Below, one piece after another: positions 36,769 through 41,461 of a stretch of DNA of 60,927 nt. Each line of letters starts with the position of its first letter. Within the stretch, counting starts at the first letter, position 1. This DNA is from Agromyces seonyuensis. GTDB lineage: Bacteria > Actinomycetota > Actinomycetes > Actinomycetales > Microbacteriaceae. The position numbers and the translations under genes were made by a program. A model generated the notes under the pieces. It made no database searches, had not been told where the DNA came from, and worked only from the letters and a program-made list of their open reading frames with translations. Where the stretch lies: contig NZ_WSTA01000009.1 in the NCBI RefSeq assembly GCF_009789225.1, positions 1 through 60,927 on the forward strand, written 5' to 3'.

Positions 36769-36783
36769 CGCTCCGTTCGTCCG

Positions 36784-37023
36784 GTGGTCGAGTAGCGAGC
36801 GGAGCGATCGTCTCGAGACCGGGTGCGGTTGTCTCGATACGGCGCTGGCGCGCCGACTCGACCAGCGAAATGGTCGCGTCTCGAGACCGGGTGCGGGGGT
36901 CTCGATACGGCGCTGGCGCGCCTACTCGACCAGCGTTGCGTTGGTCGAGTAGCGAGCGGAGCGAGCGTATCGAGACCGGGTGCGGGGGTCTCGACACGGC
37001 GCCGGCGCGCCGACTCGACCGGC
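36784..37023. repeat. Palindromic intergenic repeat, three tandem copies (B)
   Basis: Copy 1 (36784-36866) runs tggtcgagtagcgagcggag to ctcgaccagc; copy 2 (36871-36934) lacks the left part; copy 3 (36941-37023) is complete. Each holds gagaccgggtgcg, then gtctcgatacggcgctggcg and a closing ctcgacc. They fill the entire gap between the ABC gene and the convergent DUF305 gene and are the only candidate terminators there. Confidence 0.8.
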
Positions 37024-37039
37024 GGAGGCCGCGGGGCGA

Positions 37040-37811: not shown

Positions 37812-38486
37812 TCAGGAGAGCGAGCCGGTCTCGTCGACCCCGCCCGTGCAGACCGCGTTGGGCTCGGGGACGGTGGCGGCGCGCCAGTACTGCTCGAAGA
37901 ACTCGGAGATCCGCGGGTCGTCGGCGGAGTCGACCTTGAGCTGCGCGTTCCACGCGCTCACGGCGATCGGGGTGTCCATGTTCTCGTAGGGGGAGAAGAC
38001 CGCGAAGCTGAGCGGCAGGTAGGACTTGAGCTTCGCGATGTCGTCCTCGTCGACCTGGGCGGGGTCGTAGGTGAGCCACACGGCGCCGTGCTCCATCGAG
38101 TGCACCGCGTTCTCATTGGGAACCGGCACGTCGTAGACGCCGCAGTTCAGCCAGACCTGGTTGTGCTGGCCGCCGGCCGGCGGGTCCTGGGGGTACTCGA
38201 CCGTGCCCGAGACGTGCTCGCTCGTGTTCTCGAAGGTCTCGACGCCCTCGATCTCGCCGGGAGTGGCGCCGCCCGCGTAGGAGGCCGGCTTCGGCGTCAG
38301 CACGATCGTCGTGACGACGAGGGCGATGACCGCGACCGCCGCGACGGAGCCGGTCCAGATCCAGATGAGCTTGTTGCGCTTCCGGGCCGCTTCCTTCTTG
38401 CGGTACGCGGCGAGCTTCGCGTCGCGCGCGGCGGCGCGCTGCTGCTTGACCGTCGGGTTCTGGTTCGAAGCGGACTGCTGGGGCAC
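37812..38486 (-). CDS. DUF3105-domain membrane-anchored protein
   Basis: A 224-residue protein with a basic N-terminus (KQQRAAARDAKLAAYRKKEAARKRNK), one helix (LIWIWTGSVAAVAVIALVVTTIV) and an extracytoplasmic DUF3105 domain holding PPAGGQHNQVWLNCGVYD, AVHSMEHGAVWLTYDP and one further Cys near the end. The His/Cys content and pairing with DUF305 suggest a shared metal-related envelope role, which is inference. The GTG at 38486 with gagagg at 38494-38499 was chosen; the in-frame GTG at 38522 lies 9 bases from a TAGGCT box (38532-38537) and cannot be excluded as a near-leaderless start. Confidence 0.88.
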   Translation of the reverse strand: MPQQSASNQNPTVKQQRAAARDAKLAAYRKKEAARKRNKLIWIWTGSVAAVAVIALVVTTIVLTPKPASYAGGATPGEIEGVETFENTSEHVSGTVEYPQDPPAGGQHNQVWLNCGVYDVPVPNENAVHSMEHGAVWLTYDPAQVDEDDIAKLKSYLPLSFAVFSPYENMDTPIAVSAWNAQLKVDSADDPRISEFFEQYWRAATVPEPNAVCTGGVDETGSLS

Positions 38487-38531
38487 GTGGGGGCCTCTCG
38501 TCGGGTTTGGCGGGGACGACACTCGTCGCCG

Positions 38532-38537
38532 AGCCTA
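38532..38537 (-). promoter_or_regulatory. -10 box of the DUF3105-DUF305 operon
   Basis: TAGGCT on the minus strand (agccta on plus). It lies about 100 bp from the divergent TAGGCT that drives the poly-Cys leader. Confidence 0.5.
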
Positions 38538-38637
38538 AACGATGCCGCGGCAAGCAACCGCGGGAATCCGCCGGGTTCCCGGGGCTTCCCCAGGGCGCGG
38601 GGGCGCCGACCGGCTACCCGGCCCCGGGGGATGCGGC

Positions 38638-38643
38638 TAGGCT
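38638..38643 (+). promoter_or_regulatory. -10 box of the transsulfuration operon
   Basis: TAGGCT ends exactly 6 bases before the GTG at 38650, so transcription should start at that codon. Confidence 0.6.
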
Positions 38644-38649
38644 GGTCGA

Positions 38650-38694
38650 GTGCTCCCGCCGTTCTCGTGTTGCTGTCGTCGCCGTTCGCGCTGA
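38650..38694 (+). CDS. Leaderless poly-cysteine leader peptide
   Basis: A 14-residue open frame, MLPPFSCCCRRRSR, starting with GTG 6 bases after TAGGCT and ending with TGA at 38694. Three consecutive Cys codons (TGT TGC TGT) followed by three Arg codons would stall ribosomes when charged Cys-tRNA is scarce. Leaderless poly-Cys short frames that attenuate cysteine-metabolism operons are known from mycobacteria. This one precedes the cystathionine beta-synthase gene by 118 bases, a span containing a hairpin (38721-38749). The downstream pathway makes the regulatory reading attractive, but translation and function are not shown here. Confidence 0.65.
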   Translation: MLPPFSCCCRRRSR

Positions 38695-38720
38695 CCCAGC
38701 TTCCTGCGCGCAATTCGGCA

Positions 38721-38749
38721 GTCCGGCGCGGGCGCGAACGCCCCCGGAC
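38721..38749 (+). promoter_or_regulatory. Hairpin between the poly-Cys leader and the CBS gene
   Basis: gtccgg pairs with ccggac and gggcg pairs with cgccc around a cgaa loop, with a 3-base bulge. It starts 26 bases after the leader stop. It could be an attenuator or a structure that hides the CBS start region, depending on where ribosomes stall. Confidence 0.5.
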
Positions 38750-38812
38750 CCGTCGCGATCGGCATCCGACGCCTGCGTGCACCACACGACACGACCCTGA
38801 GGACCCATTCCA

Positions 38813-40177
38813 GTGCGTTACGCGAACCACGTCGTCGACCTCGTCGGCGGCACCCCCCTCGTCAAGCTCAACCACGTCACCGACGGCATCCAGGCCACGG
38901 TGCTCGTCAAGCTCGAGTACCTGAACCCCGGCGGCTCCTCGAAGGACCGCATCGCGACGCGCATCATCGACGCGGCCGAGCAGGAGGGCAAGCTCGCCCC
39001 CGGCGGCACGATCGTCGAGCCGACGAGCGGCAACACCGGCGTCGGCCTGGCGCTCGTCGCGCAGCAGCGCGGCTACCGCACGATCTTCGTCGTGCCCGAC
39101 AAGGTCGGCGAGGACAAGCGCAACGTGCTCACGGCCTACGGCGCCGAGGTCGTCGTGACCCCGACGGCGGTCGCCCCCGAGAGCCCGGAGTCCTACTACT
39201 CGGTGAGCGACCGGCTCGTCGCCGAGATCCCGGGCGCGTTCAAGCCGAACCAGTACGACAACCCGAACGGCCCGCGCGCGCACTACGAGACGACCGGTCC
39301 CGAGATCTGGGCCGACACCGAGGGCGAGGTCACGCACTTCGTCGCGGGCGTCGGCACGGGCGGCACGATCACGGGCACCGGGCGCTACCTGCGCGAGGTC
39401 TCGGGCGACGCCGTGCGCATTATCGGCGCCGACCCCGAGGGCTCGGTGTACTCGGGCGGCACGGGCCGTCCGTACCTCGTCGAGGGCGTCGGCGAGGACT
39501 TCTGGCCGGGCACCTACGACCCCGCCGTGCCGCACGAGATCATCGAGGTCACCGACGCCGAGTCGTTCGCGATGACCCGTCGTCTGGCGCGCGAGGAGGG
39601 CATCCTCGTCGGCGGCTCGAGCGGCATGGCCGTCGTCGCAGCGCTCAAGGCGGCCAAGGACGCTCCGGCGGACTCGGTGTTCGTCGTGCTGCTGCCCGAC
39701 GGCGGCCGCGGCTACCTCGGCAAGATCTTCAACGACACCTGGATGCGCGCGAACGGCTTCGCGAACGCGCCGGCCGGCCACACCGTCGCGAACCTGCTCG
39801 CGGCGAAGGCCGACCGCATCGCCCCGCTCGTCTACGTGCACCCGACCGACTCGGTGCGCGACGCGATCGACCGGATGACCGAGACCGGCGTCTCCCAGCT
39901 GCTCGTGCTCGGCGCCGAGCCGCCCGTCGTGCTCGGCGAGGTGCGCGGTGCGCTCGACGAGGAGGCGCTGCTCGAGCTCGTCTTCTCCGGCGCGGTGCAG
40001 CTCACCGACGAGGTGTCGACGCTCGATGTGTCGCCGCTGCCGCTCATCGGCGTCAACGAGCCCGTCGCGACCGCGCGGGCGGAGTTCACCACGCATCCGG
40101 CACTGCTCGTCACCGACGGCGGCAAGGTGCTCGGCGTCGTGAGCCGCGCCGACCTCCTGACCTACCTCTCCGCGTGA
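38813..40177 (+). CDS. cbs: Cystathionine beta-synthase
   Basis: A 454-residue PLP enzyme that condenses serine (or O-acetylserine) with homocysteine, the first step of reverse transsulfuration; some relatives act as cysteine synthases. Fold-type II features: LNPGGSSKDRIA with PLP-binding Lys44, TSGNTG phosphate-side loop, GTGGTITGTGRYL glycine loop, and SSGMAV near residue 268. A tandem CBS-domain pair follows (about residues 335-452; LVYVHPTDSVRDAIDRMTE), which in this family senses a ligand such as AdoMet; the heme-binding N-terminus of animal enzymes is absent. The GTG start has gagga at 38799-38803. The next gene, a gamma-synthase, begins 32 bases later. Confidence 0.94.
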   Translation: MRYANHVVDLVGGTPLVKLNHVTDGIQATVLVKLEYLNPGGSSKDRIATRIIDAAEQEGKLAPGGTIVEPTSGNTGVGLALVAQQRGYRTIFVVPDKVGEDKRNVLTAYGAEVVVTPTAVAPESPESYYSVSDRLVAEIPGAFKPNQYDNPNGPRAHYETTGPEIWADTEGEVTHFVAGVGTGGTITGTGRYLREVSGDAVRIIGADPEGSVYSGGTGRPYLVEGVGEDFWPGTYDPAVPHEIIEVTDAESFAMTRRLAREEGILVGGSSGMAVVAALKAAKDAPADSVFVVLLPDGGRGYLGKIFNDTWMRANGFANAPAGHTVANLLAAKADRIAPLVYVHPTDSVRDAIDRMTETGVSQLLVLGAEPPVVLGEVRGALDEEALLELVFSGAVQLTDEVSTLDVSPLPLIGVNEPVATARAEFTTHPALLVTDGGKVLGVVSRADLLTYLSA

Positions 40178-40209
40178 CGCGCGCGATCGAGACGAATCGA
40201 GATACCGAC

Positions 40210-41352
40210 ATGACTTCCTTCGAGACCATCGCCATCCACGCCGGCCAGGACGCCGACCCCACGACGGGCGCGGTCATCCCGCCGATTCACGTCACCTCCA
40301 CCTACGTGCAGGACGGCATCGGCGGCCTCCGCGGCGGCTACGAGTACTCGCGCGGCGGCAACCCGACGCGCACGGCGCTCGAGACGCAGCTCGCCGGCAT
40401 CGAGGGCGGCGCCTTCGGCCTGTCGTTCGCGTCGGGCCTCGCGGCCGAGGACGCGCTGCTGCGCACGGTGCTCGGCCCCGGCGACCACGTCATCATCGGC
40501 AACGACGTCTACGGCGGCACGCACCGCCTCATCCGCCGCATCCACGGCGGCAAGGGCGTCGAGCACTCGACGGTCGACACGAGCGACCTGGATGCCGTCG
40601 CGGCGGCGATCCGCCCCGAGACGAAAATCCTCTGGGTCGAGACGCCGTCGAACCCGCTCATGAAGCTCAGCGACATCGCGGCGCTCGTCGAACTCGGCCA
40701 CTCCCGCGGTCTGCTCGTCGTCGTCGACAACACCTTCGCGAGCCCGGCGCTGCAGCGCCCGCTCGAGTTCGGCGCCGACGTGGTCGTGCACTCGACGACG
40801 AAGTACCTCGGCGGCCACTCCGACGTCGTCGGCGGCGCGCTCGTGCTGAACGACCCCGAGCTCGAGGAGCAGGTGCGCTTCACCCAGTTCGCGGCCGGCG
40901 CGGTCTCGAGCCCGTTCGACGCGTTCCTCACCTCGCGCGGCATCAAGACGCTCGCCGTGCGCATGGAGCGGCACTCGTCCAACGCGCAGGCGATCGCCGA
41001 GCACCTCGTCGGCCACGCCGCGGTCGCGCGCGTCCTCTACCCGGGCCTGCCGACGCACCCCGGCCACGAGCTCGCGGCGCGGCAGATGTCGGGCTTCGGC
41101 GGCATGATCTCGCTCGACCTCGCCGGCGGCGAAGCCGCAGCGCGGAAGTTCGCCGAGTCGACCGAGCTCTTCTCCCTCGCCGAGTCGCTCGGCGGCGTGG
41201 AGTCCCTCGTGAACTACCCGTCGGAGATGACGCACGCGTCGGTCAAGGGCACGCCCGCCGAGGTGTCGCCGTCGATCGTGCGCCTGTCGGTCGGCCTCGA
41301 GGCCGCCGCGGACCTCATCGCCGACATCGACGGCGCGCTCGCGTCGCTGTGA
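40210..41352 (+). CDS. metB: Cystathionine gamma-synthase/lyase
   Basis: A 380-residue Cys/Met-metabolism PLP enzyme. It opens MTSFETIAIHAGQDADPTTGAVIPPI, carries YEYSRGGNPTR, SGLAAEDALL, and the PLP Lys198 in VVHSTTKYLGGHSDVVGG, and ends with SPSIVRLSVGLE. Either direction of chemistry (gamma-synthase or gamma-lyase) fits; next to a beta-synthase, the lyase step giving cysteine is plausible and the symbol is provisional. The ATG at 40210 was preferred over an in-frame GTG at 40174 that overlaps the CBS stop because family members start at MTSFET. Co-transcribed with CBS and so under the poly-Cys leader. Confidence 0.92.
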   Translation: MTSFETIAIHAGQDADPTTGAVIPPIHVTSTYVQDGIGGLRGGYEYSRGGNPTRTALETQLAGIEGGAFGLSFASGLAAEDALLRTVLGPGDHVIIGNDVYGGTHRLIRRIHGGKGVEHSTVDTSDLDAVAAAIRPETKILWVETPSNPLMKLSDIAALVELGHSRGLLVVVDNTFASPALQRPLEFGADVVVHSTTKYLGGHSDVVGGALVLNDPELEEQVRFTQFAAGAVSSPFDAFLTSRGIKTLAVRMERHSSNAQAIAEHLVGHAAVARVLYPGLPTHPGHELAARQMSGFGGMISLDLAGGEAAARKFAESTELFSLAESLGGVESLVNYPSEMTHASVKGTPAEVSPSIVRLSVGLEAAADLIADIDGALASL

Positions 41353-41365
41353 GCGCGCCGTTCGC

Positions 41366-41461
41366 GGTGGTCGAGGAAGCGAGGAGTGGCGTCTCGAGAC
41401 CGGGCGAGTCGACCTGCTGCAGGGTCTCGATACGGCGCTGACGCGCCGACTCGACCGACGG
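41366..41461. repeat. Palindromic intergenic repeat, copy C
   Basis: ggtggtcgag through gtctcgagaccgggcgagtc, gacctgctgcagggtctcga, tacggcgctgacgcgccgac to ctcgaccgacg. Centre resembles copy A (gcgagtcgacctgc), arms resemble copies B. Confidence 0.75.

Follow-up and report, generated by a model that had tools for sequence, protein, structure and literature searches.

The cystathionine beta-synthase (CBS) gene of Agromyces seonyuensis is preceded by a very short, Cys-rich reading frame, which raises the question whether this frame arose by chance or is a device by which cysteine supply controls the genes behind it. In the window (the whole stretch of DNA analysed, 60,927 nucleotides), direct reading of the sequence reproduces exactly the arrangement on which the original prediction was built, namely TAGGCT, a gap of exactly 6 bases, and a GTG opening MLPPFSCCCRRRSR, with three consecutive Cys codons inside (Table 1). 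The frame has 14 codons before the stop (GTG CTC CCG CCG TTC TCG TGT TGC TGT CGT CGC CGT TCG CGC TGA), and the position of the -10 box would place the transcription start at 38650. No sigma-70 promoter match with a -35 box was found at the window leader, and Rfam 15 gave no match over the gathering score in the window. The stop of the short frame lies 118 bases before the CBS start, and the start of the cystathionine gamma-synthase/lyase family gene (CGS) overlaps the CBS stop. With both family matches above cut-off, the short frame is the first frame of a cysteine-metabolism operon. The divergent neighbour, a gene for a DUF3105 protein (37812-38522, minus strand), has no visible part in the CBS leader. 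Repeats of 40 to 86 bases (GGGTCTCGATACGGCGCTGGCGCGCC..) at 36782-37025 and 41422-41461 flank the CBS-CGS region on both sides.

Table 1. Positions in the window of the short frame, its predicted pairing partners and the operon behind it.
Feature	Positions	Strand	Basis
-10 box TAGGCT of predicted promoter	38638..38643	+	sequence; box class TANNNT in 46 collected frames
Spacer GGTCGA, between TAGGCT and GTG	38644-38649		read directly
Leaderless short ORF MLPPFSCCCRRRSR, GTG start 38650-38652, TGA stop 38692-38694	38650..38694	+	
Cys codons TGT TGC TGT, proposed cysteine sensor	38668..38676	+	sequence, conservation, TGT over-use
Predicted 5' arm of closing stem, end of codon 4 to codon 10, whole Cys run inside	38661..38679	+	minimum-energy fold of 38650-38830
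Strong inner hairpin, no U-tract 3' of it	38721..38749	+	fold prediction
Predicted 3' arm, holding the CBS Shine-Dalgarno GAGGA (38799-38803)	38786..38804	+	fold prediction
CBS, GTG start 38813	38813..40177	+	TIGR01137 573 bits (cut-off 510); PF00291 and PF00571
CGS	40174..41352	+	NF005871 626.8 bits (cut-off 513); PF01053

The poly-Cys frame before CBS is not a product of chance. When both strands of the window were scanned for a TANNNT box followed by 6 or 7 bases, an ATG or GTG and a frame that has adjacent Cys codons and does not exceed 20 codons, the CBS leader was the one match. The same pattern matched 44 times in 130 CBS loci (1.08 Mb counting both strands), all 44 matches being CBS leaders, and 0 times on one strand of 5 Mb of first-order Markov sequence. 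Loss of the Cys run in close relatives had been named beforehand as a possible refutation; in 35 of the 37 genomes of the genus, CBS is preceded by a short leaderless frame that has two or more Cys codons, and these are adjacent in 34 of the 35 (L013 has C-R-C). Two members of the genus (L006 and L008), which form one clade in the CBS tree, lack the frame and retain the -10 box and the ribosome-binding site (by eye), a natural loss. A model of the frame built from sequence only and run on 60 genomes had its best match at the CBS leader in 32 of the 37 genus genomes, many of which had contributed to it (33 of 45 frames were used); the exceptions were G008, G009, G017, G025 and G026. Five weaker matches of this model (E 0.004 to 0.024) were discarded, as the pattern scan found no leaderless poly-Cys frame there.

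Beyond the genus, 60 of the 103 other-genus CBS loci of the Microbacteriaceae were examined, mostly the more similar ones, of which 21 carry the frame before CBS and 39 do not. The frame is also found in two Naasia loci, in Labedella populi, in a locus of another family (L038), and at all six CBS loci of Promicromonospora (Promicromonosporaceae). In a further family (f4), 41 genomes yielded 11 CBS loci, and the frame stands before CBS in every one, each time with 7 bases between a TANNNT box and its start; five of the 11 peptides end in FSCCCR, letters that the window peptide also contains. The CBS loci of Mycobacterium, Nocardia, Arthrobacter, Cellulomonas, Blastococcus and Micromonospora showed no frame within 400 bases upstream, a search that a distant frame could escape because f4 frames lie up to 435 bases upstream. 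No such frame was seen around cysH/cysD (eight genus genomes with 1.5-kb flanks, six of them with 4 kb more upstream) or around a cysK-like gene (eight genomes), in stretches that may not reach every operon's promoter; a multi-operon set was therefore not seen.

CBS proteins of Promicromonospora (L051-L056) are sister to those of the window genus (L001-L037) in a quick tree (SH-aLRT 99), and are closer to them than the other Microbacteriaceae in that tree are, so the placement suggests horizontal transfer of CBS together with its leader. The f4 homologues (L292-L302) match only about residues 1-356 of the 454-residue CBS of the window and thus seem to be without most of the C-terminal CBS-domain part. 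Among single loci, L245 has upstream of CBS a leaderless frame (MRVTLRCRLG, by eye) with a single Cys codon at the same position, perhaps a decaying sensor, and L016 has three closely spaced copies of TTGTCGCTGACGC at the frame end and immediately behind it, which looks like a duplication of the sensor's last part.

Several features of the 46 collected frames (TANNNT box required, gap of 4 to 10 bases allowed; a C-S-C frame of Naasia lichenicola, L072, without a strict box was not collected) carry signs of selection. The distance from box to start is 6 bases in 26 and 7 bases in 20 frames, the start codon is GTG in 43 and ATG in three, Cys codons are adjacent in 44 (the window has CCC), and the residue after the last Cys is Arg or His in 45; the peptides, 8-14 residues long, are otherwise very variable. 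The number of Arg varies, however, and tuning of the stall by the Arg codons, as had been proposed, is not the sole reading because the Arg bases also lie in predicted stems. Cys codon choice is inverted: the frames have 102 TGT and 13 TGC, whereas the 46 CBS genes behind them have 2 TGT and 72 TGC (Fisher p 7.5e-36, the cells not being independent). In f4, the frames use TGT only and the CBS genes contain 0 TGT and 3 TGC. CGS lies directly 3' of CBS in all 46 loci with a frame vs. 39 of 84 without, counts that are uncorrected for kinship and include some frameless stretches that end early.

Frame and leaderless-looking CBS gene never occur together. Among 190 CBS loci, which are not all distinct (at least L066 = L192, L065 = L232 and L061 = L201), 67 have the frame, 36 a leaderless CBS and none both, while 87 fall in a class with neither that is defined by strict patterns and includes L191, whose poly-Cys frame has no box at the right distance. 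L066 (C-R-R-C) was counted in this comparison only. In the family set of 97 loci, the corresponding numbers are 56 with frame, 21 with leaderless CBS, 20 with neither and 0 with both (Fisher p 2.7e-10, kinship uncorrected).

Since many relatives keep such a frame at the same place, a role as an intrinsic cysteine gauge, of the kind known from mycobacteria, is very probable. We consider it likely that 38650-38694 is the gene of a leaderless cysteine-sensing leader peptide that acts by ribosome-mediated translational attenuation of CBS-CGS, an account in which the frame, its conserved position behind a -10 box, the kept Cys codons, the codon bias and the operon context are observed, and in which we infer the transcription start, translation, stalling and cysteine response of the leader. 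RNA polymerase would start at or next to the GTG, and a ribosome would load directly on the 5' end. With ample Cys-tRNA, the ribosome would cross the Cys codons, terminate at 38692 and leave; codons 4-10 would then pair with the stretch up to and including the CBS Shine-Dalgarno, and CBS would be poorly translated. When Cys-tRNA is short, the ribosome would halt on the Cys codons with a footprint covering most of the short frame, which would free the CBS ribosome-binding site, and CBS and the overlapping CGS would be made, giving cysteine from homocysteine by reverse transsulfuration. The original prediction is partly supported: its observation was correct and so was the core of its interpretation, with the cysteine response a proposal. 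Conservation bears out the leaderless poly-Cys leader as a candidate cysteine-responsive attenuator, but a terminator-type hairpin was not recovered, as 38500-38850 contains no intrinsic terminator (hairpin plus U-tract). A switch in which the frame itself covers the CBS ribosome-binding site appears better supported than a terminator hairpin.

In the minimum-energy fold of the window leader, the two arms listed in Table 1 pair around inner hairpins. The predicted hairpins before CBS are present, although shuffled sequences fold just as well as the entire leader (z 0.15). The frame-pairing probability of 38799-38804 is 0.82-0.97 in folds ending at 38830 or 38842 and about 0.2 in a fold ending at 38900, in which the minimum-energy structure still keeps the pairing. 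One test, a noisy one that used the 40 bases before CBS, found the pairing to be better than with shuffled ribosome-binding regions (z -2.2, p 0.027); other tests found no excess in the window (z 0.24; z +0.37 and +0.45; exchanged-partner residual +1.3). For the window genome, the modelled evidence is mixed and the pairing is a proposal. A 9-bp pair (38683-38691 with 38732-38740) was rejected as the key switch, such a length being, by estimate, unsurprising in a G+C-rich stretch.

Comparison across loci (without L050, whose frame lies 316 bases from CBS and which was left out of the pairing tests and later placed in the f4 set) gives a graded result. With 14 cluster representatives and a test confined to the ribosome-binding site, a frame's own partner beats those of other clusters (permutation p 0.008); over all clusters, neither a wider pairing test (p 0.064) nor an ungapped test (p 0.055) was significant, and several clusters show no excess pairing. 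In Promicromonospora, masking is far better than by shuffled frames at all six loci (z 2.5 to 6.9), and a duplex test against frame shuffles gave z -4.1 to -0.5, with only four of six below -1.7. A group of 12 similar leaders (L014, L015, L019, L021, L022, L024-L027, L029, L031 and L033), which is not one clade in the CBS tree, is informative as well: in ten of them, the Cys codons and the codon that precedes them form an uninterrupted pairing of 6 to 10 bases with the stretch preceding the CBS start, a pairing that in three leaders extends into the CBS start codon. Both-sided changes occur at one position of this pairing (C-G, G-C, U-A and U-G, by eye), and a leader's own partner outperforms exchanged partners (p 0.013); no such pairing is seen in L025 or L027. 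With a stall in the model, opening the ribosome-binding site becomes cheaper by over 0.5 kcal/mol at 35 of 45 loci and for 10 of 14 representatives, but this model is weak alone because blocking any 30 bases tends to free partners.

The f4 leaders are organised differently. There, the frame forms the predicted 5' arm of a long hairpin, whose 3' arm was recognised by eye in 9 of 11 loci, and own-partner pairing is significant over the 11 related loci (p 0.0005), with five passing p 0.05 singly and L292 and L294 showing no excess. The 3' arm reads GACGCATAAC or GACGCATACC in nine of the 11, is absent from L292 and L294, and lies about 10-100 bases after the frame stop (L292-L302). The frame stop is 183-405 bases before CBS; the hairpin cannot mask the CBS start directly, and the output in f4 must therefore be different or indirect. 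Our confidence is slightly lower than the main values would suggest, because the Promicromonospora duplex test and the f4 loci taken singly give weaker results. Overall, modelled pairing between frame and CBS start is clear in Promicromonospora and one leader group, and partial elsewhere.

The main rival to translational attenuation keeps the same cysteine sensor and moves the switch to transcription, so that a stalled ribosome changes the choice of hairpin or shields the RNA from Rho and transcription continues into CBS only under cysteine shortage. The distance of the f4 hairpin from the CBS start would suit this reading, Seliverstov et al. 2005 (PMC1262725) suggested Rho for the cys and cbs leaders of Actinobacteria, and in the group of 12 similar leaders the segments CGTCGC, GCGAC, GCGTCGC and GACGC alternate (by eye) as in a trp attenuator. 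These segments, however, hardly vary and thus give no covariation evidence, the genus-wide consensus fold is weak (-16.7 kcal/mol), and the window has no U-tract terminator; we regard control of transcription as rather unlikely, a good deal less so than the two readings that follow.

One of these is that the peptide itself acts, for example as a redox- or metal-sensing Cys-rich product, in place of stalling at its codons. The Arg or His after the last Cys in nearly all frames could be read in this way, but the rest of the peptide varies freely, the architecture occurs only before CBS in the scanned loci, and the inverted Cys codon choice points to a role of the RNA or of decoding and not of the product, which leaves this reading with very little probability. 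Slightly less credible still is a functionless chance frame behind an ordinary promoter: frames so short are common and the fold of the whole leader is no better than that of shuffles, yet the spacing of 6 or 7 bases from the -10 box, the pattern scan, the exclusion between the two CBS states, the Cys codon bias and above all the conservation make it very unlikely.

A broader reading is one that we put forward tentatively as possible. Several Actinobacterial families may share an old leaderless poly-Cys leader at CBS whose bases would have a threefold role, as the beginning of the message, as a cysteine sensor via the rare TGT and as the arm that masks the CBS start. CBS promoters of the family would alternate between a leaderless CBS and a leaderless sensor followed by a CBS with a Shine-Dalgarno; acquiring or losing a dozen codons would then place the reverse-transsulfuration operon under cysteine control or release it. 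Leaderless frames as cysteine attenuators would extend beyond mycobacteria to Microbacteriaceae, Promicromonospora and a third family, and to the pathway from methionine to cysteine, on whose control in these bacteria we found little in print. The codon inversion together with the natural deletion offers a handle on whether the choice of rare codons in the leader serves decoding or RNA pairing.

Among known systems, the mycobacterial frames invoked as precedent in the original prediction are indeed described: leaderless Cys-rich frames precede cysA2, Rv0485 and nirA (Shell et al. 2015, PMC4633059). For M. smegmatis, Canestrari et al. 2020 showed attenuation that depends on cysteine, according to papers that cite it (PMC9031893, PMC13236596), and these leaderless polycysteine short ORFs are also covered in PMC9094748. 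As described there, the mycobacterial frames share with the window leader, where leaderless initiation is predicted, the leaderless position after a -10 box, a Cys run near the end and a place before a sulfur-metabolism gene; they differ in host family and gene, which here is CBS-CGS. As a positive control, a similar scan of four Mycobacterium/Mycolicibacterium genomes detected in all four, ahead of rhodanese genes, a poly-Cys frame (V..RLEL.LTKRRAVDLCRVAGCCCCCC..) that lies 7 bases after a TANNNT box and is, from its position, presumably the published one. The mycobacterial frames found by scan encode unrelated peptides of 30 residues with 8-9 Cys, as compared to 8-14 residues here, and mix TGT and TGC, whereas TGT dominates in the CBS leaders.

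Other known leaders share fewer of these traits. The uORFC-8-2 motif before cysS in Rhodobacterales (PMC8632094) has two tandem Cys codons and a proposed ribosome-mediated attenuation, but its description gives an AUG frame inside a structured leader with an intrinsic terminator at its end, a dominance of UGC, and another gene and phylum. The terminator hairpin with U-tract of a classical trp-type attenuator is absent from the window leader (38500-38850). Closer are the leader peptides with a Cys run that Seliverstov et al. 2005 (PMC1262725) predicted in Mycobacterium and P. acnes, ahead of cys operons, and in Bifidobacterium longum, ahead of cbs; the last is also a short frame with Cys codons near the stop and no obvious terminator. 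The passages of that paper on these leaders differ in proposing Rho-dependent termination and in making no mention of leaderless initiation, and they do not name Leifsonia xyli, one of the genomes included, as having such a leader. Among the matches listed from the open literature, where Microbacteriaceae was the one name queried, there was no description of such a frame in Microbacteriaceae or Promicromonospora. Thus, the kind of leader is known already, from mycobacteria (experimentally, per the citing papers) and from the 2005 B. longum prediction, so the extension to CBS is not new as a link to cbs. New here are the predicted leaderless architecture at CBS, its breadth, the inverted codon bias and the mutual exclusion with leaderless CBS genes. 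In its proposed action, the leader would match the translation attenuation outlined for the mycobacterial case, in which the uORF pairs downstream and occludes the Shine-Dalgarno until a stalled ribosome opens it (PMC13236596).
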